Shown here piece after piece: positions 6,451 to 31,030 of a stretch of 33,869 nucleotides of DNA. The stretch covers positions 1 through 33,869 of the forward strand of contig LJUC01000007.1 in assembly GCA_001303695.1 (NCBI GenBank), written 5' to 3'. Source of the stretch: Phycisphaerae bacterium SM23_30 (GTDB taxonomy: Bacteria > Planctomycetota > Phycisphaerae > Sedimentisphaerales > SM23-30). The notes beneath the pieces are model-generated. The model did not search any database. It was not told the origin of the DNA and saw nothing but the letters and a program-made list of their open reading frames with translations. Every line of letters starts with the position of its first letter. The stretch's first letter is position 1. Both the position numbers and the translations under genes were made by a program.

Positions 6451-6663
6451 CACCCCCTCATAGACGCCAATTACCGGACAAAAAGTGATACCCGGATCAG
6501 TAAATGCTTGGCGATATCATCCTTGAAGGTTATAATCATATAGGTCAGTTTGATATAATAACAGGTATTGCATAAATCCGCTTGAATTTTGGATATAGTT
6601 TGGGCACCAGGGTATGGATCTTCCTCTAACCTGACGTTAACTTTTTGTTTTATAAAGGTTTAC
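6451..6663. other. Intergenic sequence between the fumarase relic and the coiled-coil gene
   Basis: The fumarase match stops near 6450. The rest of the ORF to 6543 matches no fumarase and looks like read-through of a lost stop. The remaining AT-rich stretch probably holds the promoter of the downstream array, but I could not single out a convincing -35/-10 pair. The tracked ORF start at 6589 (TTG) lies in this stretch and is unlikely to be used. Confidence 0.4.
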
Positions 6664-8328
6664 ATGAAATCAGCCTTTGATAGACATCTCAATAGAATTC
6701 GCTGGCGCTGTAACTTTAATCTCCTTTTTGAGCAGTTCGCCTGGGTATTGGCGTCGGCGGGGGCGATCATGGTCCTGGCGGTACTGGCCGAGCGTTGCCT
6801 GGCAGTGCAAATTTATCGGCAATGGATTTTATGGTTTTTTTTGGCGAGTATTGTCATTCTTACGACGTTGTCATGGTTTTTCAAGCGGCCCAGTACGATT
6901 CAGTTGGCACTTTTGATCGACCAGAGGCTGTCACTGCATGAGCGGTTCAGTACGGCCTTAACGGTTGCGGATCGGGATGATCCTTTTGCTCATGCGGCTA
7001 TTACCGACGCCCACCAGGCGGCCCGGAACCTGAAAATTGAAGGTCGCTTTCCGGTTAGACTTTCACGGCGCTGGCTGCTATCAGCGGGCATCTGGGGTTT
7101 GGCCGGTATTTTAGTGCTTTTTATGCCGCAGATGGATCTATGGGGGAGATTGAAAGAGAAACAGCAAGAGCAGGAAAAGGTTGAGCAACTGGAACAGGCT
7201 AAAACGGAGGTAAGGAGCGCCATAAAAGCGGTCAGCAGTGCCGTAAAACAATTGGCCGAACCGGAACTGGCGGAAGAACTGGGTAAATTTGAGAGCGCCT
7301 TGGCCGAAGAGCTCAAGCCGGATGAAGTGAGACGTCAGGCCATCCGGAGATTAGGTGATCTATCGGACAAGATCCGCCAGTCACAAGAAGATCAAATGGA
7401 TATGGCCCGGATGACCCGTCAGATGCTTCGGAGACTGCGCGGTTCCGCGGGTGAACTCACCCGGGAGTTGAACCAGGCGCTGGCCCAAAGCAACTTCGGC
7501 AGGGCCGACCAAATCATGGAAGAGTTCCAAAGGCAAATAGCACAGTCGGAGCTATCAGAAGAGCAGCGTCGGGCCCTGGCCCAGCAGTTGGAGAAACTAG
7601 CCCAACAGTTAAAGGATTTAGCCCAACAGGATCAACGGCTTGAAAAAGAACTGGAAAAAATGGATCTGGATAAGAAATTGGCCCAAATGAATCCGGAAGA
7701 ATTGCGTAAGGTTCTGGAGAAAATGGGTTTGGATGAGGAGGCGATCAAACAAATGCTGCGTATGGCCGGTTCGTCGCGTTTGGCCCGTTCTCAAATCAGT
7801 CGATTGGGAGAGGCTTTGGCCGGTGTAGCGGGGGGCGGTCCAGGGGGGCTTTCGGGCGATGAGATGGCTGAATTGGCCGAGCAGTTGGGTGAGATGGAGG
7901 CCCTGCAGGAGGAATTTTACCTGACCCAGGCCACTCTGGATGAGATTGCCCGCTCGATAGCCGCTTTGGGAGAAGGAGAGTGCGGGTACGGCGGTTATGG
8001 GGAATACATGGAGGGTCTGGATTTTGAATTCGGCCCCGGCACCGGTGGTCCGGGGCGTGGCTGGGGTCCGCGGCGATCGGAGGAGAGCGGCGCTACCGCC
8101 ACCCAAAAGACCCGAACCAAGACCCAGACGGGTGCGGGACCGATGATCGCCAGCTGGATGTTCGAAGGGCCGCAGGTTAAAGGCGAATCGAGACGTCAGT
8201 TAGAAGAGTTAGCCGATCAGGCTCAAAGCAGCGTCGCCGAAGCCATCAGCGAAGATGAAATCCCGCGCAAATACGAAACGACCATCAAGAAGTACTTCGG
8301 CGCCTTGAAACAGACGGATAAAAAATAA
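6664..8328 (+). CDS. Membrane-anchored coiled-coil protein (unrecognised family)
   Basis: I chose the ATG at 6664 (MKSAFDRHLNRIRW...) with an AAAGG ribosome site. The tracked TTG start at 6589 adds 25 residues with no membrane or domain character. The product has 554 residues. Two membrane helices near residues 24-45 and 54-75 and a third near 135-155 precede a long Glu/Gln/Arg/Leu-rich coiled coil at about 160-385 ('LAQQLEKLAQQLKDLAQQDQ' type repeats). A Gly-rich, low-complexity patch and a charged C-terminus follow. The arrangement resembles DUF4175-like or other membrane coiled-coil proteins found near MoxR/BatA gene sets, but this is only an architectural similarity. It heads the long + strand array, so a structural or scaffold role in the same envelope system is plausible. 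Confidence 0.8.
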   Translation: MKSAFDRHLNRIRWRCNFNLLFEQFAWVLASAGAIMVLAVLAERCLAVQIYRQWILWFFLASIVILTTLSWFFKRPSTIQLALLIDQRLSLHERFSTALTVADRDDPFAHAAITDAHQAARNLKIEGRFPVRLSRRWLLSAGIWGLAGILVLFMPQMDLWGRLKEKQQEQEKVEQLEQAKTEVRSAIKAVSSAVKQLAEPELAEELGKFESALAEELKPDEVRRQAIRRLGDLSDKIRQSQEDQMDMARMTRQMLRRLRGSAGELTRELNQALAQSNFGRADQIMEEFQRQIAQSELSEEQRRALAQQLEKLAQQLKDLAQQDQRLEKELEKMDLDKKLAQMNPEELRKVLEKMGLDEEAIKQMLRMAGSSRLARSQISRLGEALAGVAGGGPGGLSGDEMAELAEQLGEMEALQEEFYLTQATLDEIARSIAALGEGECGYGGYGEYMEGLDFEFGPGTGGPGRGWGPRRSEESGATATQKTRTKTQTGAGPMIASWMFEGPQVKGESRRQLEELADQAQSSVAEAISEDEIPRKYETTIKKYFGALKQTDKK

Positions 8329-8398: not shown

Positions 8399-9526
8399 AT
8401 GAATTTGAATTTATTTCGACAAAGAGCCCTATTTGAATGTCTAGCGAAATCCAGAAGATGCCGCTGCGCGGGGTGTTTAAATGGATTCTTCGGCTGCGCT
8501 CGGGATGACAGTAGTAATTTTGGTTATGCGCTCTTGTTTTCCGTTCTTTTGTTGCCGGTGGTATTATTTTTCGGACCCGGCTGCGATGGGACAAGAGAAG
8601 AAGTGGTGTTGTATTGTTCGGTGGACCAGGCTTTTGCGGAGCCGTTAGTGGGGGAATTTGAGAAACAAACGGGCATTGAGGTATTGGCCCGTTATGACAC
8701 GGAAGCGACGAAGACGGTGGGGCTGGTGAAGAAGATCGAAGCGGAGGCCGCCCGGCCGATAGCGGATGTTTTCTGGTCGAGTGAGGTTTTTTATACGATT
8801 CGGTTGGCCCGGGAAGGTTTGCTGGAGGGTTTTGAGAGCGAAGAAACAAGGGGCTGGCCGGGGTATCTCACCGATGAGGGGGGACATTGGTATGGTTTTG
8901 CCCTGCGGGGTCGGGTGATCGCCTACAGCAGCGAGAGGGTTTCGGATGCCGAAGCTCCCAAAAGGCTGGAGGATCTGCTGGACGGCAGGTGGAAAGGGCG
9001 GCTGGTGATGGCCGATCCGGGGTCGGGCACCACGGGAGGGGATGTAGCCAGTTGGTTTGTTCACTACGGCGCCGACGGGGCGCGGGAGATTTTGCAGGGA
9101 CTCAAGGCCAACCAGGTGCGTCTGGTGGACGGCAACAGCACGGCGGTGCGGTGGGTGGCGACCGGTCAGGCGGACGTTTGCCTGACCGATACCGATGACG
9201 TCTATGCGGGCCAGAGAAACGGATGGCCGATATCCCGAAATTTTCTTGATCAGGGCGGCGCGGGCGTGCTGGCCATACCTAATACGGCGGCACTTATTAA
9301 AGGCGCTCCTCATAGGGAGGCGGCGCGTAAACTGATGGACTATTTATTAAGCGAGCGGGTGGAGCGCCTGCTGGCCCAAAGTGATTCCCACAATGCTCCG
9401 ATTCATGGGTCTTTAGCGGAGGAATTTGAGGAGTATTTAATACCGACGCCCCTGGAGGTGAACTATGCGGAAGTAGCCGAAGTGTTGCCGGAGGCGATCC
9501 AGGCGGCCCGGGAGATACTTAAGTGA
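8399..9526 (+). CDS. Iron(III)-type ABC transporter solute-binding lipoprotein
   Basis: The mature part (from 'EVVLYCSVDQAFAEPLVGEF', through 'ADVFWSSEV', to 'VRWVATGQADVCLTDTDDVY') is typical of the FbpA/FutA-like periplasmic Fe3+-binding family; the substrate is not proven. A hydrophobic segment at residues 43-58 ends in the lipobox 'FFGPGC' with Cys62, so it should be lipid-anchored outside the membrane. The odd part is the N-terminus. The ATG at 8399 has a good AGGAG site, but about 40 hydrophilic, Cys/Arg-rich residues precede the signal helix, and they are encoded by a dispersed repeat (8446-8511). An in-frame TTG at 8534 would give a normal short signal peptide. The stop overlaps the permease start by 4 bases (GTGA). 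No ATP-binding subunit of this importer is nearby. Confidence 0.88.
   Translation: MNLNLFRQRALFECLAKSRRCRCAGCLNGFFGCARDDSSNFGYALLFSVLLLPVVLFFGPGCDGTREEVVLYCSVDQAFAEPLVGEFEKQTGIEVLARYDTEATKTVGLVKKIEAEAARPIADVFWSSEVFYTIRLAREGLLEGFESEETRGWPGYLTDEGGHWYGFALRGRVIAYSSERVSDAEAPKRLEDLLDGRWKGRLVMADPGSGTTGGDVASWFVHYGADGAREILQGLKANQVRLVDGNSTAVRWVATGQADVCLTDTDDVYAGQRNGWPISRNFLDQGGAGVLAIPNTAALIKGAPHREAARKLMDYLLSERVERLLAQSDSHNAPIHGSLAEEFEEYLIPTPLEVNYAEVAEVLPEAIQAAREILK
8446..8511 (-). repeat. Dispersed 'GTCATCCCGAGCGCAGCCGAAGAATC' repeat inside the 5' end of a gene
   Basis: On the - strand the stretch reads CTGTCATCCCGAGCGCAGCC... followed by GAAGAATCCAT, a widely seen intergenic repeat of bacterial genomes. 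Its translation 'CHPERSRRI' is a familiar spurious peptide. The other end is degenerate and may reach back to about 8403. It lies inside the solute-binding protein ORF, after the ATG and before the signal helix, and keeps the frame open. A related copy lies at 22535-22635. Confidence 0.7.
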
Positions 9527-12078
9527 AAGGGCAAAGGCTATCTGCCGGGCTGTTCGCGGCCGTAACTTTCTTCGTTTGGGGTGCGATTGTATTGCTGCCT
9601 CTGGCCAGACTTTACGCCGGCGCGATTTTTTCGAAGGGGAGCATAGCGCCGGAAGACGAATATGTTGCTTTGATAATTCGGTCACTGGGACTGGCGGCGG
9701 TGATCGCCGCCATAGCGGTGTTGCTGGGTTATGTGCCGGGACGCATTCTCGGCACCCAAAACAGCAGAGAGGGCCTGCTTTTATTTTTATTTTTGATGCC
9801 GGTGGTGCTGCCGCGATACGTGCTGTATTACGTCTGGAGACTGCTGCAGACGCCGACGACCGAGCTGGGCAGATTTCTTTCGGCGGAACCGGAGCGGGCC
9901 AGATTAGCAGGGGCGATAACGACGTGTATGGTCATGATATTGTGGTACTGGCCGTTAGCAAGTTTGCTGATAGCGCAAGGGTGGCGCACCATTGATCGGG
10001 AGGCTCTGGAGTGCGCCCGACTGGAGGCGCCGCCTCTGGGTCGTTTTACGGGGGTTACTTTGCCTCTATTGCGGCGGAGTTTGATGCTGGCGTTTGGCGT
10101 GTGCTTTGTTTTTGCTCTAGGCGAGTTCGGCGTGTTTCATCTGGCGGGCGTCCGGACCCTGGGGACGGAGTTAAAGGATTTGTATAATCTTACCGGATCC
10201 GAAAATTTTATCGCCCGGGCGGGATGGCCCTTAACGGTTTTGGCCGTTATTATGGGAATCCTTTTATGGCGGCAGGCGCGGGATTGGGCGGTTAATGTGC
10301 CTGCCGGTCCGTTCGACAGTCGCCCGGGCCGATGGCGTTGGACCGTGGCGGCGGTGCTGCTGGCGTTTTCTCTGGGGGCCCCGATAGCGTTGTTGATCGG
10401 GCACGTCAGGGACCTGAGTCCCATAGAACAATTTTGGAAATTACATTATGATGAACTGATTGGTTCGGTGCTCACCTCCGGGCTGGGGGCGGTCATCGCG
10501 TTGTTGATGGCAGGAGGGACCCTGATGGTGGAACGATGGGGGGGCGGGGGGCGTTTGGTATCAGGATTCATGCAAATTTTTATTCTGGCGGCGATGTTTC
10601 TGCCCGGTTCGCTGGCGGCGGCGGCGCTATTAAAGATGCTGGGAGAGATTCCGCTAGCGGCACCCTTGAGGCAAGGGTGGTATATGGTTTCAGCGGGTCT
10701 GGCGGTGCGTTTTACGGGGGTAGTGCTTATTTTACTGCGTTTAGCCCGCGATACCCATCAAAAGCATCTGGGGGAAATGGCATCAGTGGACGGGGCGTCG
10801 TGGTTTCAGACATGGCGGCAAATTCATCTGCCGCGGACCTGGCCGCTGGTGCTGGGGGCCTTGGTGCTGGTTTTAATGCTGGGCATGACGGAGTTGTCGG
10901 CGACGATGCTGCTGCTGCCGGCGGGGGTTCCGAATTTTGCCCAGCAACTACTCAACCAGATGCACTACCTGAGGGATCAACACGTAATTACTTCGTGTCT
11001 AATGTTGATGGCCGTATATCTAGTTTTGGGCGTACTGGTGGTGGGGCTGATACGCATGATTAAAGCGCGATCGGTGGCGGCGCTGATTACGGCTGCTTTA
11101 TTAATTTTTCCGACGGGTTGTGATTTTAGATTTTCCTCGGGAGGCGAGGCGGAGGTTTTAACGGTATTCGGCGGCACGGGCCGGGGCGGGGGTCAATTTA
11201 TGTATCCGCGGGCGATCGACATTGCTCCGGACGGTTCGCTGTTCGTGGCGGATAAGACCGGCAGGATTCAGCGCTTGACCGCCGACGGGGAGTATGTATC
11301 GGCAATCAGGATGCCATTGATCGAGAATGGATACCCGACGGGGATCAGTTTCGGTCCGGACGGCAATTTATACGTGGCGGATACTCATTATCATCGGGTG
11401 ATGGTGTTTACCCCGGAGGGGGAAAAGGTCGGCGTCTTCGGCCGGTTGGGCGAAGGCGACGGTGAGTTTATTTACCCCACGGATGTAGCCTTTGCCGACG
11501 AGGGCAGATTGTTTGTGAGCGAATACGGCGGCAATGATCGCATAAGCGTATATTCTTTAGAAAATCAAAGCCAGGCAGAGAGGCAAGCTTTTGCGTCTCT
11601 TGATAGTGAAGGGGCAGCTGCGGGTTGGGCGTCTCACCAAGAACAGTGGGAATATCTATACAGTTTTGGTGTTTTAGGATCGGGGGAAGGTGAATTTTCC
11701 CGGCCGTCGGCCCTTTGCGTTGATCGGCAGAGGCGGCGGCTGTACGTGGCCGACGCCTGCAATCATCGTATCGCCGTTTATGATCTTGACGGCAGGCAGA
11801 AAGGATATTTCGGTTCGGTGGGCAGCGCGCCGGGCCAACTGCGCTACCCCTATGATCTGGCTTTATCGACGGACGGGAATTTAGTAGTATGCGAGTACGG
11901 TAATAACCGGATTCAATTATTTAATCCCGCCGGCGAGTGTTTGGCGGTGCGTGGTCGGCCGGGGCGGGGCGGGGGAGAATTGGCTTTCCCCTGGGGAGTG
12001 GCGGTCGATGCCGAGCGGCACGTCTATGTGGTGGACGCGGGCAATAATCGCATTCAGGTATGGAGGCTTGGAAATTAA
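9523..12078 (+). CDS. Iron(III)-type ABC permease fused to a six-repeat NHL beta-propeller
   Basis: Residues 1 to about 515 form a FbpB-like permease with two membrane domains. Each carries an EAA-type coupling loop ('EALECARLEAPPLGRFTGVTLP' region near 160 and 'GEMASVDGASWFQTWRQIHLP' near 418). It continues without a stop into 'LITAALLIFPTGC' (Cys533), which looks exactly like a lipoprotein signal and lipobox. About 318 residues with six NHL repeats follow ('YPRAIDIAPDGSLFVAD', 'YVVDAGNNRIQVW' and others). The propeller would sit on the outer face. An in-frame ATG at 11056 (MIKARSVAAL...) could start a separate NHL lipoprotein. The GTG start overlaps the binding-protein stop. A palindromic repeat (11577-11600) lies in a loop between blades 3 and 4. 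The matching ATPase gene is absent here. Confidence 0.88.
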   Translation: MKGQRLSAGLFAAVTFFVWGAIVLLPLARLYAGAIFSKGSIAPEDEYVALIIRSLGLAAVIAAIAVLLGYVPGRILGTQNSREGLLLFLFLMPVVLPRYVLYYVWRLLQTPTTELGRFLSAEPERARLAGAITTCMVMILWYWPLASLLIAQGWRTIDREALECARLEAPPLGRFTGVTLPLLRRSLMLAFGVCFVFALGEFGVFHLAGVRTLGTELKDLYNLTGSENFIARAGWPLTVLAVIMGILLWRQARDWAVNVPAGPFDSRPGRWRWTVAAVLLAFSLGAPIALLIGHVRDLSPIEQFWKLHYDELIGSVLTSGLGAVIALLMAGGTLMVERWGGGGRLVSGFMQIFILAAMFLPGSLAAAALLKMLGEIPLAAPLRQGWYMVSAGLAVRFTGVVLILLRLARDTHQKHLGEMASVDGASWFQTWRQIHLPRTWPLVLGALVLVLMLGMTELSATMLLLPAGVPNFAQQLLNQMHYLRDQHVITSCLMLMAVYLVLGVLVVGLIRMIKARSVAALITAALLIFPTGCDFRFSSGGEAEVLTVFGGTGRGGGQFMYPRAIDIAPDGSLFVADKTGRIQRLTADGEYVSAIRMPLIENGYPTGISFGPDGNLYVADTHYHRVMVFTPEGEKVGVFGRLGEGDGEFIYPTDVAFADEGRLFVSEYGGNDRISVYSLENQSQAERQAFASLDSEGAAAGWASHQEQWEYLYSFGVLGSGEGEFSRPSALCVDRQRRRLYVADACNHRIAVYDLDGRQKGYFGSVGSAPGQLRYPYDLALSTDGNLVVCEYGNNRIQLFNPAGECLAVRGRPGRGGGELAFPWGVAVDAERHVYVVDAGNNRIQVWRLGN
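11577..11600. repeat. GAGACGCAA-type palindromic repeat, copy 1 (inside the NHL coding region)
   Basis: AGAGAGGCAA-GCTT-TTGCGTCTCT forms a 10-bp stem with one G-G mismatch and a 4-base loop. It belongs with the copies at 17285 and 19396. It encodes part of an extra segment of about 35 residues ('SQAERQAFASLDSEG...') between NHL blades 3 and 4, which suggests an in-frame insertion. Confidence 0.65.
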
Positions 12079-12203: not shown

Positions 12204-15200
12204 ATGTTTTTGTCATATAGTTTCCATTTTAACCAACCCTGGTGGCTGCTGTTAGGGTTGCTGGCGGTGCCGATGATCTGGATGGGGCGGCGCAACCTTA
12301 TCGCCCTGGGGCCGATCCGTCGATGGACGGCACTGGTGCTGCGGGCGCTGGTGGTGGTGCTTTTGGCGGTGCTGCTGGCACAGCCGGTGCGGAGCAGGAA
12401 AAACGAACAGGTAACCGTGATAACGGTTTTTGACAGGAGCCGATCGATTCCCCTGGAACATCAAAGAGCGGGATTGACCTTTCTGGAGGAGGCGAAGACC
12501 TATCGCGAATCGGGCGATCAACTGGCGATGGTAGATGTGGCGGAAGCGGCCAGCATTGCCACTTTGCCCAATATTATAGACGACAAGACAAAAATTCCGG
12601 AACGGAACACCAACCTCACGGGTCAGCAGAGCCGGCTTTCGGACGGGGTGCAGATGGCGATGGCCATTGCCCCGCCGAACACCGCTACGAGGATTTTACT
12701 GGTCAGCGACGGCAATGAGACGGCGGGCGATTTGAAAGAAGCGGCCCGGATTGCCGCCGCCAATCAAATACCGATTGATGTCCTGCCGCTGCGTTATAAT
12801 TATGAACGGGAGGTCATCTTTAAGCATCTGGCGGCGCCCGCCAAGGCGCGGAGCGGGCAGACGATTTCGCTGCGTTTTGTGCTGAGCAGCACTTTTGAAG
12901 CTTACGGTAAGCTGCTGTTGAACCTTAACGGCGAGCCGGTGGATTTGACGGCCGATTCGGCGGAAATCGGATTGGAGGTGCAGTTAAAGCCCGGCACCAA
13001 TGTATATTCGGTGTCTCTGCCGGTGGGCATGCAGGGGATGCATGAGTTTGAAGCGGTCTTTATACCGGATAATAAGGATCAAGACCGGATAGAACAAAAT
13101 AATCGCGTCGGCGCCATGACCTATGTGGCGGGTCCCGGTCATGTAATAGTGGTGGATAAAGACGGCGTATCGGCGACGCCGTTGATCGATGCTTTGAGCC
13201 GAAGCGATATTGAGGTGCAATACTTTCCGGCGGCGGAGTTTACCGATAATATATCCAAACTGATGGACGCCGACGCGGTTATTCTGGTCAATACCGACAA
13301 CAGCAGTTTTAGTTTCGCCCAGCAGGAGATGTTGACTCGATACGTCCAGGACCTGGGCGGCGGATTGGTGATGGTGGGGGGTCCCGATTCGTTCGGCGCC
13401 GGGGGCTGGATCGGTTCGCCGGTGGCTGAGGTTCTGCCGGTCGATCTGGACCCTCCCCAGAAGAAACAGATGCCCCAGGGGGCTTTGATTTTAATTATGC
13501 ATGCCTGCGAGATGCCCCAGGGCAACTTTTGGGGCAAACGTGTCGCCACCGCCGCGGTGAATGCCTTGAGTCAGCAGGATTATGTTGGGGTACTCGATTA
13601 CGGTTGGCAGCAAGGGACGGCTCACTGGGTTTTTCCTTTTGCCCAGGCCGGCGATAAATCGGCGGTAAAAAACGCGATCAACCAGATGCAGATGGGCGAC
13701 ATGCCGGATTTCGGTCCGCCCATGCAGGCGGCTTACAATAAGCTCATAGACTGCACCGCCGCCATAAAACACGTGATCATCATCAGCGACGGTGATCCCC
13801 AGCCTGCCCCGCCGGCGCTGCTGAGCCAGTTCAAACAGGCGGGGATTACCTGCACCGGGGTGGCGGTGTTTCCTCATGAACTGGATCCGAAGGCGTATAT
13901 GTCTTTGCAATATATCGCTCAAATGACCGGGGGGAATTTTTACCTGATTAATGATCCGCAGAAGCTGCCCCAGATATTTATCAAAGAAGCCCAGATAGTA
14001 CGACGGAGCTTGATCATAGAGGAAACTTTTACCCCGAGGGTTAACTTTTCCCTCAGTGAGATTCTCAAGGGAATTGGCGGCTTTCAACCCGCGCTGGACG
14101 GTTATGTTTATACCGGGCCCAAAGGCGGAATGGCGCAAATTGTATTGACCAGTCCTGATAATGATCCGATCCTGGCGACCAATCAGTCCGGTCTGGGTCG
14201 AACGGCGGCCTTTACCAGTTCGGCGGACAGCCGCTGGGCGTCGGATTGGTTGAAATGGCAAAACTTCGCCCAATTCTGGGAACAGCTCGTGCGCTGGGTC
14301 AGTAAACCATCACAGTCGTCCGATTGTGAGGTGTTCGCCGACGTTTTGGGCCGCGACGTGACCCTTACCGTGGAGGCTGTTGACGCTCAAGGTGAGTTTG
14401 TACAATTTTCCAATATCATCGGTCAGACCATCGCTCCGGATATGTCGGTCGAACCGCTTTCTTTGGTGCAGGTGGGACCGGGCCGATATAGGGGACAGTT
14501 TCAGGCCCAGCACTCGGGAAGTTATATTGTCAGTCTCAGATACGGCAAACCCGATGAACCCGGTAAAACGCACACGGTGCAAAGTGCGGTGACGGTGCCT
14601 TTTGCACCGGAGTTTCGCGACCTTACCGACAACTCTGCTTTGCTGACGGAGGTCAGCCGCATTACCGGGGGCCGGGTTATCCGCCCTCAGCCCGATCAGG
14701 CCGAGCTTTTTGATCGGACAGAGGTCAAGTTTCCGCGGACTCCTTTGCCTCTGCTTGATTATCTCATGTTGGTCTGGTTGGGGCTGTTTTTGTTGGATGT
14801 GGGCGTGCGGCGTATTGCGTGGGACGTCAGAGCGGCAGGCCGCAGCCTGGCCAGGCACGTCCAAAGGATAGGGCGAGGTCGAGTCTCGGATCCTACCCTG
14901 GAAAGATTAAAACAAACGCGTCAAAAACTGCGTGACCAGTGGGCCCGCCAGGCGCCGGAGGCTCAGGCCTCTCGGCGCTATGAGGCGGCGCGGGACACGG
15001 CCGGTGAGGATCTGCCTTTAGCTAAAACCGCGCCGAAAAAACAGAGGCCGCCCCTGCCGACGGCAGGGGAAAAAGCCGCGGAGAAAAAAGAAGCAGCGCC
15101 CGCCAAAAAACCGAAGGCGAAAGCCGCCCAGGATGCCCGGCATATCCAACAGTTACTGAAAGCCAAACGCCGGGCCAAGGAGAATGAACCAAAAGATTGA
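12204..15200 (+). CDS. Large VWA / GATase-like membrane protein
   Basis: This protein of 998 residues has an N-terminal BatA-like pair of helices (about 10-28 and 42-60). A von Willebrand A domain follows with MIDAS motif D77-R-S-R-S81, Thr near 139 and 'LLVSDG' near 165-170. A class I glutamine-amidotransferase-like domain lies at about 310-415 ('PGHVIVVDKDG', 'GGGLVMVGGPDSFG') without a visible catalytic triad. A second VWA-like domain begins near 427 ('LILIMHACEM', then 'HVIIISDGDPQP') and has a degenerate MIDAS. A beta-rich region, one helix near 850-870 and a Lys/Ala/Arg-rich cytoplasmic tail complete it. Such proteins accompany MoxR and DUF58 genes and are thought to act with the AAA+ ATPase on envelope substrates; the substrate here is unknown. 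MoxR starts 31 bases downstream. The ATG has only a weak ribosome site. Confidence 0.88.
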   Translation: MFLSYSFHFNQPWWLLLGLLAVPMIWMGRRNLIALGPIRRWTALVLRALVVVLLAVLLAQPVRSRKNEQVTVITVFDRSRSIPLEHQRAGLTFLEEAKTYRESGDQLAMVDVAEAASIATLPNIIDDKTKIPERNTNLTGQQSRLSDGVQMAMAIAPPNTATRILLVSDGNETAGDLKEAARIAAANQIPIDVLPLRYNYEREVIFKHLAAPAKARSGQTISLRFVLSSTFEAYGKLLLNLNGEPVDLTADSAEIGLEVQLKPGTNVYSVSLPVGMQGMHEFEAVFIPDNKDQDRIEQNNRVGAMTYVAGPGHVIVVDKDGVSATPLIDALSRSDIEVQYFPAAEFTDNISKLMDADAVILVNTDNSSFSFAQQEMLTRYVQDLGGGLVMVGGPDSFGAGGWIGSPVAEVLPVDLDPPQKKQMPQGALILIMHACEMPQGNFWGKRVATAAVNALSQQDYVGVLDYGWQQGTAHWVFPFAQAGDKSAVKNAINQMQMGDMPDFGPPMQAAYNKLIDCTAAIKHVIIISDGDPQPAPPALLSQFKQAGITCTGVAVFPHELDPKAYMSLQYIAQMTGGNFYLINDPQKLPQIFIKEAQIVRRSLIIEETFTPRVNFSLSEILKGIGGFQPALDGYVYTGPKGGMAQIVLTSPDNDPILATNQSGLGRTAAFTSSADSRWASDWLKWQNFAQFWEQLVRWVSKPSQSSDCEVFADVLGRDVTLTVEAVDAQGEFVQFSNIIGQTIAPDMSVEPLSLVQVGPGRYRGQFQAQHSGSYIVSLRYGKPDEPGKTHTVQSAVTVPFAPEFRDLTDNSALLTEVSRITGGRVIRPQPDQAELFDRTEVKFPRTPLPLLDYLMLVWLGLFLLDVGVRRIAWDVRAAGRSLARHVQRIGRGRVSDPTLERLKQTRQKLRDQWARQAPEAQASRRYEAARDTAGEDLPLAKTAPKKQRPPLPTAGEKAAEKKEAAPAKKPKAKAAQDARHIQQLLKAKRRAKENEPKD

Positions 15201-15231: not shown

Positions 15232-16257
15232 ATGTTGGATAAAAACAAAGAGGTTGAAGAAAAGTGTCGCGAATTTCGCCGGATGTTCGAATCTCTGCGG
15301 CGGGAGATATCGAAGGTTATAGTAGGTCACGAGGAGATCATAGATGACGTGCTGATCTGTCTTTTTTGCGACGGGCATGTACTTCTGGAAGGCGTGCCGG
15401 GCCTGGGCAAAACCCTGCTGGTGCGGACGCTCAGCTCGTCGTTGTCGCTTTCGTTCGGACGGATTCAGTTTACGCCCGATTTGATGCCCGCCGACATCAT
15501 CGGCACCACGGTGGTGATGGAAGACAGGGCGACCGGCAAGCGCCACTTTGAGTTTCAAAAGGGACCGATTTTCGCCCAGGTCATTTTGGCCGACGAGATC
15601 AATCGCGCCACTCCCAAAACCCAGTCGGCGATGCTGGAGGCGATGCAGGAACACGCGGTGACCAGCGGGGGCCATCGTTATCGGCTGGTGGAGCCCTTCA
15701 TGGTTTTGGCCACGCAAAATCCGATCGAACAGGAAGGCACCTATCCTTTACCGGAGGCCCAGCTGGATCGCTTTTTCTTTAAGGTGCTGGTGCCTTACAG
15801 CAATCGCGAGGAGCTGGGCACTATTCTGGACCGCACCACGGCGGGGCAGGATCCTCAGGCAGAGGCGGTTATCGGCGCCCCGCAAATAATCGACGCTCAA
15901 CGACTGGTGCGCCAGGTGACGGTCGCCCCGCATGTGCAGGATTACGCTATTCGTTTGGTTTTAGCCACTCATCCCGGGGGTGAATTTGCTCCGGAGATAA
16001 CCAATCGATTCGTACGGTACGGCGCATCGCCGCGGGGCGTGCAGGCGGTGGTGCTGGCCGGCAAGGTGCGGGCCCTGCTGGATGAGCGGTATAACGTGAG
16101 TTTTGCCGACGTATCCGGTTCGTTGCCGCCGGCGCTGCGACATCGGATGATTTTAAATTTTGAAGGACAAGCGGAAGGCATCACTACCGACGAGGTTTTG
16201 AGACAAATCATGCAGGAGACGCCCACCACCACGGAAAAGGCCGTTAAAGTACCATGA
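15232..16257 (+). CDS. MoxR-family AAA+ ATPase
   Basis: The 341-residue cytoplasmic protein shows Walker A 'GVPGLGKT' (54-61), Walker B 'VILADE' (117-122) followed by the MoxR hallmark 'INRATPKTQSAMLEAMQE', sensor 1 'ATQNPIEQEGTYPLPEAQLDRF' (from 160) and a C-terminal lid domain. MoxR proteins work as chaperone-like ATPases with VWA partners to activate or assemble complexes. The gene has an AGGAG site before its ATG. Its stop overlaps the DUF58 gene start (ATGA), and VWA genes flank it on both sides, so it forms the core of a MoxR-DUF58-VWA module. All ATPase motifs are intact. Confidence 0.96.
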   Translation: MLDKNKEVEEKCREFRRMFESLRREISKVIVGHEEIIDDVLICLFCDGHVLLEGVPGLGKTLLVRTLSSSLSLSFGRIQFTPDLMPADIIGTTVVMEDRATGKRHFEFQKGPIFAQVILADEINRATPKTQSAMLEAMQEHAVTSGGHRYRLVEPFMVLATQNPIEQEGTYPLPEAQLDRFFFKVLVPYSNREELGTILDRTTAGQDPQAEAVIGAPQIIDAQRLVRQVTVAPHVQDYAIRLVLATHPGGEFAPEITNRFVRYGASPRGVQAVVLAGKVRALLDERYNVSFADVSGSLPPALRHRMILNFEGQAEGITTDEVLRQIMQETPTTTEKAVKVP

Positions 16258-17168
16258 AACAAAGCAAGCCAAAATCTTACGATCGCCGCCTAACGGAATT
16301 GTTGGATGCCGACTTTATGGCCCGGTTGGATGGTTTGGACGTTCTCAGCCGTAAGATCCTGCAGGGGAAAATTCAGGGCGAGCGGCGCTCCAAACGGCGC
16401 GGTCAAAGCGTGGAGTTTGCCGATCATCGGCGCTACGTCGTCGGCGATGACCTGCGTTTTGTGGATTGGAATATTTACGGTCGCTTAGAACAGTTGTTTT
16501 TGAAGTTGTTTCTCGAGGAGCAGGACCTGACGGTATATATAGTTATCGACAGCAGCGGATCGATGGATTTCGGGGAGCCGGCCAAGGGGTTTTTCATAAA
16601 GAAGCTGGCGGCGGCGCTGGGTTACGTGAGCCTGGTCAACAACAATCGGGTAAGTCTTAGTTCGTTTGCCGACGGCATCACCGGCGATTTGAGCCATATG
16701 CGCGGCCGAAGCTACCTACCGCAGATGGCCGAGTTTCTCCTGACGTGCCGGGATGTCGGACCCACCTTTTTTGAGAAATCCTGCCGGCAAAGGGCCTCCG
16801 GGCGCTTTGGTTCGGGCGTTATGATAGTACTTTCCGATTTTCTCTTTAAGGATGGTTACCAAAGCGGCCTGCGGCGTTTGATAAGCGATCGTTTTGATTT
16901 ATACCTGATCCAGGTGCTCAGCCCCCAGGAGATGGAGCCGGATCTTACCGGGGAATTAAAACTGGTGGATATTGAAGACGGCGACGCCGCGGAGATCACC
17001 GTTAGCGCCGCTTTGTTAAAGTATTATAAAAGAACTTTGGCTTCTTACTGCAATGAATTAAAACAGTTTTGCACTCAACGCGGAGCGGCCTACGTACTGG
17101 CCAATTCGGCCGATAAGGTCGAGCATCTGGTGCTGAACTACCTGCGGAGGATTGGATTGTTACGTTAA
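16254..17168 (+). CDS. DUF58 family VWA-like protein
   Basis: The product has 304 residues, soluble, with no membrane helix. The DUF58 signature 'YVVGDDLRFVDWNIYGR' lies at 61-77 and is followed by a VWA-like fold with a full MIDAS start 'DSSGSM' (99-104) and 'MIVLSDFL' further on. Members of this family are the usual adaptor partners of MoxR ATPases. Translation is coupled to moxR through an ATGA overlap. After the stop there is a gap of 176 bases that holds two hairpins, so expression of the downstream BatA gene may differ. Confidence 0.95.
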   Translation: MKQSKPKSYDRRLTELLDADFMARLDGLDVLSRKILQGKIQGERRSKRRGQSVEFADHRRYVVGDDLRFVDWNIYGRLEQLFLKLFLEEQDLTVYIVIDSSGSMDFGEPAKGFFIKKLAAALGYVSLVNNNRVSLSSFADGITGDLSHMRGRSYLPQMAEFLLTCRDVGPTFFEKSCRQRASGRFGSGVMIVLSDFLFKDGYQSGLRRLISDRFDLYLIQVLSPQEMEPDLTGELKLVDIEDGDAAEITVSAALLKYYKRTLASYCNELKQFCTQRGAAYVLANSADKVEHLVLNYLRRIGLLR

Positions 17169-17306: not shown

Positions 17307-17344
17307 CGCACGAAAAAATGAAGTAAAAGTTGGGAGTTGTCTTT

Positions 17345-19372
17345 ATGGAATGGTTGGCGCCCATGACCGCCATATATGCCGCCTCGGTCGCGGTGCCGCT
17401 TTTGGTGCTGATGTATTTTCTCAAGCTCAAACGCCAGGAGCGGTTAATATCCAGCACTCTGCTTTGGAGACGTGCCGTAAGGGACCTGCAGGTTAACGCA
17501 CCGCTGCAAAGGCTGAGGCGTAATCTGCTGTTGTTGCTGCAATTGCTGGCTTTGCTGTCGATATTGGCGGCTTTGGGTCGGCCGATATTATCATTACAGG
17601 CCGGCGCCGGGCAGCGCTATGTGCTTTTGATAGACAACTCGGCCAGCATGAACGCCGCCGACGCCGGTCCAGCCCGCCTGGAAGAGGCTCAAAGACAAGC
17701 CCGGTTGTTCGTGGAATCGCTGCGTAATAAAACGTCTTTTTCGCTGGGGGAAGCCTCGGACCAGGCGATGGTGATCGCTTTTAATAACCATGCTCAAGTG
17801 ATGTGCAACTTTACCGCGGATAAGCACCAACTGACCTCTGCCATTGAATCAATATCGCCCGGTGACGGAGGCTCTTCCTTATACGAGGCGGTTACGGTGG
17901 CGCGCGCTTTCGCCCAGTCGCCGGGCACGGAAAATAACGACCGCAGCGCCGAAGAGATGCCCCAGCTGGTGTTATTCAGTGACGGCCGGATCGGCGACGC
18001 CGAACAGTTGGTGATAAATGCCGAGGAGATTGACTTTCATTGCATAGGTAACTTGCATGACAATATCGCTATTACGGCGATGCAGGCGCGCCGCTCCTAT
18101 GAAAATGCCGATGAGGTGACGGTTTTTGCCACCCTGGCCAATTACGGTTTTGAGGCGGTTAATTGCGCGGTGCAGCTCAGCCTTAACGGCGATGTGCGGG
18201 CGGTGCGTCCGGTTGATATTCCGGCCCGACGGACGTCACAGGCGCCGGGATTGGGCTCGGCATCCGAGGTTGAAGGGCCCGGCACCACTTCGGTGACCTT
18301 TGTTCTGGAATATGCCGAGGCCGGGGTGATTGAGCTGCGACAGCTGCACCCTGATTTGTTAAACAGCGACGATGCCGCCTGGTCGATTCTGCCGCCGCCA
18401 AAAAGGCTTTCGGTTTTGTTAGTGACCCAAGGGAACCTGGCTCTGGAGTCGGCCCTGGAGGCGTGCCCGCTGGCCCGGCTGGTAATGGTAACGCCCGATG
18501 AATTTAATCCCGCCGACCAGAGCGAAAACTCCTTGGCAGCGGCCTTGAGTGCGGATCAACTTTATGACGTGATTGTATTGGATAATCATGCCCCGGCCGA
18601 ACTGCCTCGCGGCCGTTATATAGTTTTCGGCCGACCGCCCCCGGATATTGGGGTATCAGTTACGGAAGAATTACAAAATCAGGTCATGGTTGATTGGCGC
18701 AGTCGGCATCCGGTGCTGCAGTACGTAAACCTGGCCAATTTTTTCACCGCCAAGGGTTATAAGATGGATTTGCCGCGCGATGCCGAGGTGCTCGGCGAGT
18801 TAAATGAGTCGCCGGCGCTGGCTTTGCTGCACCGCAGGGGAAGCGTTTTTGTATTGGTGGGCTTCGACGTGATGGACACCAATTGGCCCTTCGAGGCGGG
18901 TTTTGTGATGTTCTTTTACAACGCCACCGCCTTTTTGTCACGGGAGGCCGGCCCGGGCCGACAGAATTTTCTGCAGGTCGGCGAGGCCATCATTCTCGAG
19001 GGCGCCGATTCCGGAACCGAAGCTCAGATCGAAGGGCCCGTTTATTTTAATGAAAAGATTGAGACGCAACATCTTGGGTCTCTACGAGCTGATCCCGCCG
19101 GCACCATTCGTTTTGCCGGCACCGATCGGGTGGGATTGTACAATGTAATAATAGAAGGCAAAGCGCCGGAATTCTTTGCGGTAAACCTGCTCGACGCCTA
19201 CGAAAGCGATGTTAAACCTGTTGATGAACTTTTTTTCTCGGGTCAACAAGTCAAGGCCGAGCAGGCCCCGGTGCGCCGGACCAATGTGGAATTGTGGCCT
19301 TATCTGGTGCTGTTGGCGTTGGTGATGGCATGCGTGGAATGGCTGGTGTATAATTCCAGAGTACGCCTTTGA
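17345..19372 (+). CDS. BatA-like protein with VWA domain
   Basis: I chose the ATG at 17345 (MEWLAPMTAIYAAS...), with GGGAG nine bases upstream, over the tracked TTG at 17330. The product of 675 residues starts with the BatA domain: a helix, 'MYFLKLKRQER', 'SSTLLWRRAVRDLQ', and a second helix 'NLLLLLQLLALLSILAALGRPIL'. A VWA domain follows with MIDAS 'DNSASM' and 'LVLFSDGRI'. A beta-rich region and a region with the look of a degenerate GATase fold come next. A single C-terminal helix ('LVLLALVMACVEWLVYN') ends it. BatA proteins are inner-membrane partners of MoxR systems, with the VWA domain outside the cytoplasm. It probably works with the VWA/GATase protein encoded at 12204, which has a similar plan. 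Confidence 0.9.
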   Translation: MEWLAPMTAIYAASVAVPLLVLMYFLKLKRQERLISSTLLWRRAVRDLQVNAPLQRLRRNLLLLLQLLALLSILAALGRPILSLQAGAGQRYVLLIDNSASMNAADAGPARLEEAQRQARLFVESLRNKTSFSLGEASDQAMVIAFNNHAQVMCNFTADKHQLTSAIESISPGDGGSSLYEAVTVARAFAQSPGTENNDRSAEEMPQLVLFSDGRIGDAEQLVINAEEIDFHCIGNLHDNIAITAMQARRSYENADEVTVFATLANYGFEAVNCAVQLSLNGDVRAVRPVDIPARRTSQAPGLGSASEVEGPGTTSVTFVLEYAEAGVIELRQLHPDLLNSDDAAWSILPPPKRLSVLLVTQGNLALESALEACPLARLVMVTPDEFNPADQSENSLAAALSADQLYDVIVLDNHAPAELPRGRYIVFGRPPPDIGVSVTEELQNQVMVDWRSRHPVLQYVNLANFFTAKGYKMDLPRDAEVLGELNESPALALLHRRGSVFVLVGFDVMDTNWPFEAGFVMFFYNATAFLSREAGPGRQNFLQVGEAIILEGADSGTEAQIEGPVYFNEKIETQHLGSLRADPAGTIRFAGTDRVGLYNVIIEGKAPEFFAVNLLDAYESDVKPVDELFFSGQQVKAEQAPVRRTNVELWPYLVLLALVMACVEWLVYNSRVRL

Positions 19373-19445: not shown

Positions 19446-21578
19446 ATGCGGCGTTCCACAACAGCTTTAGCGATCATTACTGTTTTCATCATGGCGGCAG
19501 GGGCACAGGCCCAGATCAAGTTGGACATGGACGTTGAATTTGGCTGGGAACTCTGCTATCGGCCTTCTCAGTGGATGCCGGTGAATATCAGTATCTATTC
19601 TCAACTGGACCATGCCTTTGAGGGGACGGTGGAGGTGTCGGCTCAGCAGGATAGCATGAATATTATGACCGTTTATCAAGGCTTTGTGCTCACCCCGGAC
19701 CTGCCGGCGCATATACCTTTAGTGATAAAGCTGGCTTTTGCCGCAGATGAGTGTCGGATAAGAGTAAGCGATAGTCAAGGCCGCACGGTTTTAAGAGAGG
19801 ACCGCCCCCTTTGGGATTCCAGTTCCACCCAACAGCCCTTAACGGCGGTACAGGAAGACGAACTGCTGATCGGAGTTATCGGCAACCGAAAATTTTCTTT
19901 GCCGCTGCTGTCGGATTACAGCGCTTCTATTACCGAAGGGGATACCAACCGCCCGTCGGTTTATACCGGTATGTCGGCAGGAGGGGGGGGAAAGGTTCAT
20001 ATCAAGCATAAATTAGAGCGTATGGCATGCTGGGACTGGACCGGTTTTGTCGGTCTGGATCTGCTTATATTGTATGATCCGAAATGGGATCAGCTGCACC
20101 CCGAACAATTAACGGCCATATCCCAGTGGATCGGCAACGGCGGCAAACTGTTGGTGGTAATGGGGGCCAATCCGCTGCCCGCCGAGAGCGCCGTTGCGGA
20201 AATTTTGCCCTTTGAATTGGGCCCCGCTCAGCAGGTGGTCCTGCCGCCGACGGCTATCCAGCAATGGAACTGGTCTCTATCGGAACCCCCGAGGGTGGTT
20301 GGTCGTCCGCTGAGGCCCAAGTTATCCAGCCGGATTTACCAAACCGTATCTTACGAGACAGATAAATCCCTTTTCGGGACCGGTTATGTTGGTTTCGGCC
20401 GGGTGGGAGTATTGGCGTTTGATCCGGCCCTGATCGACGAAAATGATCCCCAAAACCGGGTGCACTTCTGGGTAAAACACATAGCGGCGGTTTTGGAAGA
20501 TGAGTCTCATCTCTTAAACCGAAGCATAATATTTCAGGAAAAAAAAGGAGATGTAAATTATGACGCCTACACCTACAGCTCTTATGCCCTGGGTCAAGCC
20601 GACAGCGGTTTGACGGCGGTTTTGAACCGTCTGACCAATATTCCGGAGTTGAAGCCTTTGAGCATTTGGTGGGTGATTTTCCTTTTGACGCTGCTGGCGT
20701 TGCTGCTGGGCCCCGTGGATTACTTTGTATTAAAACGTCGAGACCGTCAGCCGTGGACCTGGCTGACGTGCATCGGATGGATCGTTCTTTTTTCCGTGGG
20801 CGCCTACTACGGGGTCCAGGCGTTGCGGGGCGGGCAAATGAGGGTGCGAACCGTTTCGGTGTGGGACGGTGTTCAGGGTCGTGGGGACAGCTGGTCCGCG
20901 ACGTATTCAGGTCTGTTCGCCCCCGCCAGCGACGAGTATCATTTAGACTTGAAGGAAACATTCGGTAAACAATGGTGGTCAGGCATAGCGCCTTCGGGCG
21001 ACTATTACTATGCCTATGAGCAAAAAGCCGGTCGGAATATTTTTTATTCTCAGCGCGACGGAGAAAATCGGCCCCTTTCGCTGCCCATAAACATATGGAC
21101 TATGCAAACTATGCTGGCGGAAGCGCCTCAGCCGCGGCTGCCTATTAATGCCGTTCTCCGGCGTCAAGGCCCAAAAATTAATTTAAGGATCACGAATTAC
21201 TCCGAAAATGCCCTAAAACAAGGTTATGTACTTTTTGACCAGGACCAAGCCCTAGCATTCGGCGCCGTCGCCGCGGGCGAAACCAGAGAGATCACCGGTG
21301 AGTTGAGCGCACGTAAAATGTGGCATCCTGGTGATAGATATGAATTATCCAGATACTATGATAATTACCCCCCATCTTATTTGGAAGTGGAGGCGGCGTA
21401 CTTCGCCCGCGGCTCTCTACAGCGCACCCAGATGATTTTGGGTTATCTGCGCCACGGGGCCGCGGTGGTCTGCGCCGAATTCGATAATACTCCGGCTCCT
21501 TTCGACGTGATAGATAAGAATTGCCGTTTTGAACACACCCAACTGGTCCGGCAGGTGGTTTTTCCTCAAGAAAGGTGA
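19446..21578 (+). CDS. Exported membrane protein with beta-rich ectodomain, BatA-associated
   Basis: I do not recognise a named family. The protein of 710 residues starts with a clear signal peptide ('TALAIITVFIMAAGAQAQ'). About 100 residues of beta-rich ectodomain follow. A segment resembling the non-catalytic GATase-like fold comes next ('LDLLILYDPKWDQLHPEQLTA', 'WIGNGGKLLVVMG'). Two membrane helices lie near 405-430 and 438-458, and a C-terminal beta-rich domain ends the protein. 'GPVDYFVLKRR' after the first helix is a motif I associate with planctomycete BatA-neighbour proteins. Its stop lies just before the ABC ATPase start, with 5 bases between, so the genes are coupled. This physically links the MoxR/VWA part of the array with the ABC-2 part. 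Confidence 0.85.
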   Translation: MRRSTTALAIITVFIMAAGAQAQIKLDMDVEFGWELCYRPSQWMPVNISIYSQLDHAFEGTVEVSAQQDSMNIMTVYQGFVLTPDLPAHIPLVIKLAFAADECRIRVSDSQGRTVLREDRPLWDSSSTQQPLTAVQEDELLIGVIGNRKFSLPLLSDYSASITEGDTNRPSVYTGMSAGGGGKVHIKHKLERMACWDWTGFVGLDLLILYDPKWDQLHPEQLTAISQWIGNGGKLLVVMGANPLPAESAVAEILPFELGPAQQVVLPPTAIQQWNWSLSEPPRVVGRPLRPKLSSRIYQTVSYETDKSLFGTGYVGFGRVGVLAFDPALIDENDPQNRVHFWVKHIAAVLEDESHLLNRSIIFQEKKGDVNYDAYTYSSYALGQADSGLTAVLNRLTNIPELKPLSIWWVIFLLTLLALLLGPVDYFVLKRRDRQPWTWLTCIGWIVLFSVGAYYGVQALRGGQMRVRTVSVWDGVQGRGDSWSATYSGLFAPASDEYHLDLKETFGKQWWSGIAPSGDYYYAYEQKAGRNIFYSQRDGENRPLSLPINIWTMQTMLAEAPQPRLPINAVLRRQGPKINLRITNYSENALKQGYVLFDQDQALAFGAVAAGETREITGELSARKMWHPGDRYELSRYYDNYPPSYLEVEAAYFARGSLQRTQMILGYLRHGAAVVCAEFDNTPAPFDVIDKNCRFEHTQLVRQVVFPQER

Positions 21579-21583
21579 ATATT

Positions 21584-22510
21584 ATGATCCAGACAAAAGG
21601 CTTAACCAAGTACTATGGAGATTTAGCGGCGTTGGTGGATCTTGACCTCGATATAAACGCCGGTGATATTTTCGGATTCATCGGCCCCAACGGCGCCGGT
21701 AAAACCACCACCATGCGGATCCTGGCGACCCTGCTGGAACCGACCCGCGGGCGGGCGTTTATCGACGGTTTGGACGTTACGAAAAAGGGTAAACAGGTCC
21801 GCGGCCGCGTCGGTTACATGCCGGACTTTATGGGAGTCTATGACGATCTCAAGGTCTTTGAGTACCTGGAGTTTTTCGCGGCGGCCTTTAACATTCCCCG
21901 CCGACAGCGCAAAAGCATTGTCGATGGCGTATTGGAGTTGACCGATCTGCAATCGAAACAGACCTTTACCGTCGACAGCCTGTCGCGCGGCATGCAGCAG
22001 CGGCTTAGTTTGGCCCGGGTTTTGATCCACGATCCCAAGGTGCTGGTCCTGGACGAACCGGCCAGCGGCCTGGACCCGCGGGCCCGCATCGAGATCCGCC
22101 AACTGCTCCAGGAACTCCAGCGAATGGGCAAGACCATTATGATCTCCAGCCATATCCTGAGCGAACTGGAGGAGATGTGCGACCACGTGGGGATCATTGA
22201 ACAGGGAAAACTGGTTTTTACCGGCACCATGGAAGAGATTCGTCGGCGGTTGGGGGTCAGCACCATGGTGCGTTTGCAGGTGGTCGGTGATCCCCGGCGG
22301 GCCGTCGAGTTGCTCAACGCCCTGCCGCAGATTCGCCAGGCCCGGCGGGTGGACGATCATATTACCGTAACCTTTGAGGACGACTCCGATAACGACGGAT
22401 TGATCGCGCGCACTCTGGTGCAGGGGAATATCGATATTATTTCCCTGCAGCCCGAACAGATTAAACTGGATCAGGCCTTCCTGCAATTGACCAAGGGAAT
22501 CGTGCAATAA
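21584..22510 (+). CDS. ABC transporter ATP-binding protein (ABC-2 / GldA type)
   Basis: Start chosen at ATG 21584, with AAAGG upstream. The tracked GTG at 21575 would overlap the previous stop and adds three residues. The product has 308 residues. Walker A 'GPNGAGKTT' is at 34-42, the signature 'LSRGMQQRL' at 133-141, Walker B with D-loop 'VLVLDEPASGLD' at 153-164, and the H-loop 'ISSHIL' follows. The Q-loop region reads 'VGYMPDF', so the usual Gln is replaced, as in a number of ABC-2 exporter ATPases. A C-terminal domain of about 90 residues is typical of this group. It must power the three permeases encoded next, since no other ATPase gene is in the window. It is an exporter-type ATPase, so it is unlikely to serve the iron importer. 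Confidence 0.95.
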   Translation: MIQTKGLTKYYGDLAALVDLDLDINAGDIFGFIGPNGAGKTTTMRILATLLEPTRGRAFIDGLDVTKKGKQVRGRVGYMPDFMGVYDDLKVFEYLEFFAAAFNIPRRQRKSIVDGVLELTDLQSKQTFTVDSLSRGMQQRLSLARVLIHDPKVLVLDEPASGLDPRARIEIRQLLQELQRMGKTIMISSHILSELEEMCDHVGIIEQGKLVFTGTMEEIRRRLGVSTMVRLQVVGDPRRAVELLNALPQIRQARRVDDHITVTFEDDSDNDGLIARTLVQGNIDIISLQPEQIKLDQAFLQLTKGIVQ

Positions 22511-22534
22511 GACGACTTTTTTAACATCGTTGAT

Positions 22535-22635
22535 TGTCATGCCGAGCGCAACGAAGCATCTTTATGAAATCGAGTATTAAGATTCTTCCCCTTCGGTTTT
22601 GCTCAGGGCTAAAGGCTTTTGCGCTCAGAATGACA
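22535..22635. repeat. MITE-like inverted repeat, 'TGTCATnCnGAGCGCAA' ends
   Basis: The left end TGTCATGCCGAGCGCAA and the reverse complement of the right end TGTCATTCTGAGCGCAA agree at 15 of 17 positions. They bound about 101 bases with internal AGATTCTTCCCCTTCGG. It lies between the ABC ATPase and the first permease gene. It is the same family as the partial element at 8446-8511. It carries no ORF and is presumably moved in trans or spread by recombination. Confidence 0.75.
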
Positions 22636-22702
22636 GAACAACATGGAGAGCCGGTAGAGTGGGGCTTTGCCCCCCTTGGAAAGTTACCGTAGGAGTATCG
22701 AT

Positions 22703-24535: not shown

Positions 24536-24555
24536 CTCATTTAGGAGTAATCAAT

Positions 24556-26367: not shown

Positions 26368-26416
26368 AAAAATTATTTTAAATCCGAAATGGGCGGCGCC
26401 CTTTTGCCGAATCCAA

Positions 26417-30170: not shown

Positions 30171-31026
30171 GACCGCTGCCCTCACTTTCTTTAAGTTCGG
30201 ATTCGATCTTTCTGCGCCTGGCGCTGTAAACGCCTATCATACCCAACGACAGGGCTACAATAACATACGGCAGCCCTTTCATGGCCCAACTGGTGTTGAC
30301 CGCCAGCGATTCGGTGGGCAGATCCGTCGGATAGTGCAGCTGTTCAAAAGGTACGCTCGAAAGGTGCAGCACGCAGGTGCCGCCCACCTCTTTTTCGCCG
30401 TAGATGTGTTGATAGTATTTGCCGGGATTGTCTACGAGCCGCCGGTGGGCTTCGGTCAGCAGCTCCTCCCGCTCGCCGGTGACGATCGCATCGGTGGGGC
30501 AGGCCTTGGAGCAGGCCGGCTCCGTAAAGCCTTCTTTTTCCTGGGTGAGCCGGTCGAAGCACATCGTGCACTTGCGGATCTTGGGCCAGGCCTTGTCCCA
30601 TTCAAACTTGGGTATATGAAAGGGACACGCCAGCATGCAGTAGCGACAGCCAATGCAGCGCTCCGTGTGCCAGATGACCGGACCTTCTTCCGTCTTTTCC
30701 AACGCCTGAACCGGGCAAGAAACCACGCAGGCCGGCCATTTGTTGCGGTCGTGAGCGTCGGTGCCGCAGTGCATACACTGCAGCTTGCCGAACACCCACT
30801 GAAAACGACCGCCCAACTCCACCTCATTGTAAGTCATTAACGTCCACGTCTTGGCCGAAAGATCACGGGGATTCTGATAACCCCGATTGGCGAACTCCGC
30901 GGCCGTCTCCTTTTGGGCGGGAAGAAAACTGGTCTCCTCGCCTTCCAGGCCGTTCCATTGCTTGCAGGCCACCTGACAGCCCCGACAGCCAATGCAACGG
31001 GTCGAATCTATCAGCATCGCTTTCAT
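30163..31026 (-). CDS. fdhB: Four-cluster [4Fe-4S] electron-transfer subunit of formate dehydrogenase
   Basis: The 287-residue product carries four ferredoxin-type cysteine sets: 'CIGCRGCQVAC' near the N-terminus, 'CMHCGT...CVVSCP', 'CIGCRYCMLACPF', and 'CTMCFDRL...CSKACP'. A single C-terminal helix ('GLPYVIVALSLGMIGVYSA') anchors it, as in FdnH. It shuttles electrons from the molybdenum/tungsten subunit to the membrane subunit. Its ribosome site AAGGAGGT lies inside the last codons of the catalytic-subunit gene, and its end overlaps the NrfD-type gene, so the operon is tightly coupled. Confidence 0.94.
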   Translation of the reverse strand: MKAMLIDSTRCIGCRGCQVACKQWNGLEGEETSFLPAQKETAAEFANRGYQNPRDLSAKTWTLMTYNEVELGGRFQWVFGKLQCMHCGTDAHDRNKWPACVVSCPVQALEKTEEGPVIWHTERCIGCRYCMLACPFHIPKFEWDKAWPKIRKCTMCFDRLTQEKEGFTEPACSKACPTDAIVTGEREELLTEAHRRLVDNPGKYYQHIYGEKEVGGTCVLHLSSVPFEQLHYPTDLPTESLAVNTSWAMKGLPYVIVALSLGMIGVYSARRRKIESELKESEGSGHE

Positions 31027-31030
31027 AGGC

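Follow-up and report, generated by a model that had tools for sequence, protein, structure and literature searches.

A gene in which the permease of an ATP-binding cassette (ABC) importer continues in one reading frame into a lipoprotein-like signal and an NHL beta-propeller was found in a 33,869-nucleotide stretch of DNA from Phycisphaerae bacterium SM23_30 (contig LJUC01000007.1, assembly GCA_001303695.1), the whole of which is called the window below. The open frame is single and conserved in a clade of related loci, a Gly-Cys pair at the junction is invariant, the surrounding operon is conserved as well, and homologues exist in which the propeller is a separate lipoprotein. The favoured explanation, towards which we lean slightly on the grounds of sequence, is that the gene encodes a polyprotein in which Cys533 would be lipidated and the chain severed there by signal peptidase II. 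The permease, the NHL propeller, the lipoprotein signal and the MoxR operon are each already known. No description of a conserved in-frame fusion keeping an internal lipoprotein signal was found in the open-licence literature searched, which held nothing on point concerning a permease fused to NHL, a bacterial polyprotein processed by a signal peptidase or an internal lipobox.

Fused Gene and Its Predicted Product

The gene (9523–12078, plus strand) is an open frame of 851 codons without an internal stop, and its GTG start, preceded by a GGGAG sequence, overlaps by 4 bases the stop of a solute-binding protein gene (8399–9526). The sequence-only reading had recognised here a permease, a lipobox-like segment and a six-bladed NHL propeller in one frame, and this was borne out by the open reading frame, Pfam, AlphaFold2 and Foldseek. 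The permease portion, with two MetI-type domains and 12 helices according to Pfam, topology and structural matches, comprises residues 1–514 (9523–11064), the embedded type II signal-like segment RMIKARSVAALITAALLIFPTGC, delimited in orthologue alignments, comprises residues 511–533 (11053–11121) and ends with Gly532-Cys533, and the NHL portion comprises residues 534–851 (11122–12075). Pfam profiles matched BPD_transp_1 at residues 343–516 and NHL in four passing stretches (E 1.3e-36).

The AlphaFold2 model of the fused chain, obtained from an alignment of 50 rows comprising the window protein and related sequences, has a mean predicted local distance difference test (pLDDT) value of 90.1 and a predicted template modelling score (pTM) of 0.88. 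In this model, residues 2–514 form a helical permease and residues 544–848 a six-bladed propeller of four-stranded blades, the last of which is closed by the N-terminal strand, while a helical insert (residues 684–708) lies within blade 3. The linker at about residues 516–536 is the worst-modelled part, mostly with pLDDT <50. The two six-helix MetI domains lie on one chain in the FbpB fold, as indicated by the model, the BPD_transp_1 match and Foldseek, where FbpB of the Thermus FbpBC importer (9j4r) was among the best matches of this half with a template modelling (TM) score of 0.78. The C-terminal half matched NHL domains from the animal proteins Thin and TRIM71 (TM 0.87–0.92). The second EAA motif of the permease (E-M-A-x-x-D-G...LP) is kept in most orthologues; in the first, EAA and Gly are gone and the ITLP end is retained. 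Hydropathy and the distribution of positive charges are consistent with a permease of twelve helices whose two ends lie inside, followed by a thirteenth stretch exporting the NHL part, the basic loops lying on the alternate, cytoplasmic side in a positive-inside pattern that includes the loop directly before the thirteenth stretch.

Conservation of the Fusion

Scanning the species genomes of GTDB yielded 44 loci, of which nearly all belong to Planctomycetota and most to Phycisphaerae, and whole-genome searches found strong matches in 22 of the 118 genomes of the window's order. The permease and NHL parts are read in one frame at 24 loci, counted as distinct rows, among which two are cut by contig ends (L005, L110) and one shows a frame change between the permease halves (L053); at all 24, including these three, NHL is in the same frame as the C-terminus of the permease. 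At about 28 other, more distant Phycisphaerae loci the permease stops and NHL has its own start, mostly with a lipoprotein signal, at positions ranging from a 4-base overlap with the permease to several hundred bases downstream of it. The fused loci form one group in the tree of the NHL part (support 97/87), and a tree with more rows unites the 24 loci and genome G099 (support 100/99). The fusion that had been read from the sequence is thus genuine and conserved, and split orthologues also exist.

The frame change of L053, seen also as L063 (G050:C218), falls at about residues 343–352 and is either a real split or an assembly error. Two loci titled Alphaproteobacteria (L019) and Leptolyngbya (L023) are of the Phycisphaerae type and stand deep among Phycisphaerae in the tree; these records are probably mislabelled or misbinned metagenome-assembled genomes.

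Embedded Lipoprotein-like Signal

Cys533 (codon 11119–11121) is the last residue of the lipobox-like segment, and a basic-plus-hydrophobic stretch precedes Gly532-Cys533. Among 12 fused orthologues with 46–59% identity to the window protein, Gly532 and Cys533 are the only invariant columns in residues 496–549, and the pair is kept in 24 of 24 fused junctions, each time after a basic loop and a hydrophobic stretch, the surroundings being variable. A basic n-region, a hydrophobic stretch and an invariant Cys, the features of a lipoprotein, are therefore all present before the NHL part; in the fused clade the signal does not stand at the start of a chain of its own but is embedded after the permease. 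In the split homologues, where it is of the same kind and ends with Gly/Ala/Ser-Cys, and in G099 the signal is free. Position +2 after the Cys is occupied by Asp or Glu in 15 of the 24 fused junctions. In E. coli, Asp at +2 keeps lipoproteins in the inner membrane, a rule that is not assumed for the present bacteria.

G099 is a single-contig genome within the fused clade, in which the operon is devoid of the solute-binding protein and permease genes and NHL is a free protein of 320 residues with its own signal ending in MSMIGC. A permease-only query gave no match elsewhere in G099, an empty answer that alone shows little at the sensitivity of the search. The simplest reading is that the transporter genes were lost and the signal was retained; alternatively, G099 may descend independently from the unfused state, since deep branches within the clade lack resolution. 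The signal segment thus seems to work alone in this genome.

Cleavage, Tethering or Internal Start

For the topology, lipidation, cleavage, partner and ATPase pairing, as for any substrate, we infer the following course of events. The N-terminal 12-helix permease would be inserted with its C-terminus in the cytoplasm, and the short basic loop with the thirteenth hydrophobic stretch would serve as an internal lipoprotein signal exporting the propeller to the periplasm. Lgt would then lipidate Cys533 and signal peptidase II (LspA) would cut before it, giving equal amounts of the permease and a membrane-anchored NHL lipoprotein. The primary partner of the latter would be the neighbouring MoxR/DUF58/VWA/BatA membrane machinery, for which it may be a periplasmic interaction platform, and the solute-binding protein and permease would make up a facultative importer powered by an unlinked MalK/PotA-type ATPase.

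The polyprotein is favoured because Gly-Cys is invariant and no internal start is conserved. In our opinion, the invariant pair is the strongest argument for cleavage over a stable tether and makes post-translational cleavage the likeliest route to two products. Of the 9 fused genomes, 7 have Lgt and 6 have LspA, and the four with a completeness of at least 90% all have both. It may tentatively be proposed, with chances falling just short of even, that signal peptidase II cuts a lipobox within a polytopic transporter chain, that the freed lipoprotein works with the MoxR/VWA machine and that this is an undescribed route to a 1:1 ratio of permease and lipoprotein.

Several points speak against cleavage. 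The genome from which the window comes, which is 78.5% complete, yielded Lgt but no LspA. The poorly modelled linker fits a cleaved segment or a merely flexible one, and no paper on an internal lipobox was found in the open-licence literature. Finally, the tetrad of the window is P-T-G-C, with Pro at position −3, so the lipobox read earlier from the sequence stands as a signal-like segment with Gly-Cys and is not strictly canonical. The strict [LVI][ASTVI][GAS]C pattern occurs in just 10 of the 24 fused junctions; the separate-gene homologues have it in 11 of 28, however, and degradation is thus no greater in the fused signals than in the free ones.

The main rival, which we regard as rather unlikely, is a stable two-domain protein whose thirteenth stretch is a transmembrane anchor, so that the propeller stays covalently tethered near the periplasmic face of the permease, where it may dock the solute-binding protein or partner proteins, Cys533 being a leftover or lipidated without cleavage. 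It agrees with the one open frame at 24 loci, with the confident modelling of both permease and propeller within one chain and with the established existence of translocator-tethered extracytoplasmic binding domains, e.g., in GlnPQ (PMC8025302). A plain anchor, however, needs no invariant Gly-Cys, the sole fixed pair of the linker, and in both the separate lipoprotein homologues and the free protein of G099 the alternative state is seen to be a lipoprotein with no tether.

It was also suggested from the sequence that an internal translation start at ATG 11056, or at a nearby codon, yields a separate NHL prolipoprotein besides the fusion. This ATG (Met512) lies 21 codons ahead of the Cys, a normal length for a signal peptide, and a start codon of some kind occurs in this region in several orthologues, but no Shine-Dalgarno-like sequence precedes any candidate at the 11 junctions checked, the candidate codons are scattered rather than aligned, Met512 is not conserved, and 4 of the 24 fused junctions (L104, L106, L107, L110) have no start codon at any position from −13 to −30 relative to the Cys. 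A start at 11056 is accordingly not supported, and internal initiation in general seems quite improbable. An artefact, i.e., a lost stop codon, sequencing error or misassembly joining two genes in the window, can practically be discounted in spite of the two separate genes of more distant relatives, since 24 separate loci, 46–59% identical to the window in a 12-row alignment, are fused in frame and form one clade, and the supposition of orthologues that are always split, with an error near 11050, fails with them.

Operon and Transporter

The stable gene order of the block is the 579-residue protein, solute-binding protein, permease, NHL, VWA/GATase-like protein, MoxR, DUF58 and BatA/VWA. In the window, where all these genes are on the plus strand, the conserved first gene (6589–8328) has no Pfam match, and its orthologue lies upstream of the solute-binding protein or NHL gene in most related loci. 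The gene following the fusion, a conserved neighbour of NHL, encodes a VWA/GATase1-like protein of 998 residues (12204–15200), and then come a MoxR-family AAA+ ATPase (15232–16257; PF07726, 210 bits; order conserved), a DUF58 protein (16254–17168; PF01882) and a BatA/VWA_2 protein (17330–19372; PF07584, PF13519). At five loci (L013, L015, L016, L020, L045) NHL and the VWA gene come shortly after the gene of the 579-residue protein, and no solute-binding protein or permease was detected. NHL is kept at such loci and is therefore tied to the MoxR/VWA block more strictly than to the transporter. MoxR/VWA pairs are chaperone-like machines acting on other proteins, one of which inserts iron into a membrane enzyme (PMC9976466, PMC13036017); that the present block has a chaperone-like or metal-insertion type role is only an idea, drawn by analogy.

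The solute-binding protein (8399–9526) is of the SBP_bac_6/11 type by profile matches and by comparison with ferric-binding proteins, which it resembles overall, being related to HitA/FutA. In place of the Tyr-Tyr of ferric-binding proteins, it has TDTDD/TDSDD, as do all aligned homologues covering the site, and its nearest NCBIfam score, that of 2-aminoethylphosphonate binding proteins, is far below the cut-off. The iron-type label first given to the permease is consequently justified for the fold, by the FbpB match, and not for the substrate: with Asp-Asp where the tandem tyrosine iron ligands should be, neither iron specificity nor identification as a ferric-iron importer is supported.

The fused and split operons searched yielded no MetI-type importer ATPase gene, though the query used did detect one beside distant pairs of solute-binding protein and permease in G051 and G005 (L064/L065). 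In G009 the ATPase gene is divergent and just upstream of the block. TOBE-type ATPases occur in 6 of 9 fused genomes. Identity to the operon-linked ATPase of G051 is 62% for the orphan ATPases G026:C58 and G009:C191 and 50–51% for G000:C20 and G001:C100. A shared, unlinked orphan ATPase likely powers the permease, to judge from these similarities. The orphan MalK/PotA-type ATPase genes of G000:C20 (L076) and G001:C100 (L077) adjoin nusA/infB/rbfA-like genes, named by sequence reading. The ATPase at 21575 was rejected as a partner, as it is of the GldA/DrrA type and sits with ABC-2 membrane proteins. In the distant operons of G051 and G005, a ChrB_C protein (PF09828) with a membrane-anchor-like N-terminus is encoded between permease and ATPase (L064:4566–5108, L065:7047–7658).

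The propeller had been thought to be an extracytoplasmic docking or sensing domain of an iron importer. The predicted topology does place it in the periplasm, but the docking or sensing part is doubtful because NHL persists without solute-binding protein and permease, the solute-binding protein is devoid of tandem tyrosines and the operon has no importer ATPase gene.

After the MoxR/DUF58/VWA block, a 710-residue protein, the GldA/DrrA-type ATPase and three ABC-2 membrane proteins are encoded on the same strand (19446–28231). The minus strand at 28878–33847 encodes a molybdopterin oxidoreductase together with an NrfD-type membrane protein, probably a respiratory complex.

Comparison with Known Systems

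If the chain is cut, the Lgt/LspA pathway can act on a signal buried behind twelve membrane helices, and lipoprotein predictors restricted to N-terminal signals would miss such proteins. Across Phycisphaerae, the poorly understood MoxR/DUF58/VWA operon is also linked with an NHL propeller that is exported and, in some cases, with an importer, which provides a handle on the role of this operon.

The FbcH polyprotein of Bradyrhizobium, consisting of cytochrome b and cytochrome c1, likewise joins a polytopic membrane protein in one frame to an exported protein behind it and is cut at an internal signal. Its signal is of the signal peptidase I type, there is no lipid anchor, and the proteins are others.

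MoxR-vWA-beta-propeller ternary systems (PMC7159879) also combine MoxR, VWA and a propeller in one neighbourhood, also in planctomycetes. However, their propeller is fused to vWA, which defines these conflict systems, whereas here it is an exported lipoprotein or a permease fusion; no propeller match was found in the VWA proteins at 12204–15200 and 17330–19372, and membership was rejected. The MoxR of the window belongs to the general AAA_3 type, for which it scores 210 bits, versus 46 for bpMoxR. NorQ/NorD metal-insertion chaperones (PMC9976466, PMC13036017) share a MoxR ATPase and a VWA partner acting on a membrane protein, but metal insertion as a task has no indication here.

FbpB of the Thermus thermophilus FbpBC importer (9j4r) has the same double MetI-type fold (TM 0.78 over 520 columns, 21% identity) and a permease paired with a solute-binding protein related to HitA/FutA; the differences are the C-terminal signal-like segment and NHL, the solute-binding protein without ferric ligands and the operon without an ATPase gene. 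GlnPQ-type importers (PMC8025302) similarly carry a periplasmic or extracellular domain on the permease chain, but that domain binds the substrate, whereas here it is an NHL propeller accompanied by a separate solute-binding protein, and the conserved Gly-Cys suggests cutting. Separate NHL lipoprotein genes of Phycisphaerae situated downstream of this permease (e.g., L006, L007, L012) have the same gene order, the same kind of lipoprotein signal and a propeller about 35–47% identical; there, a stop codon ends the permease and NHL begins from its own start.

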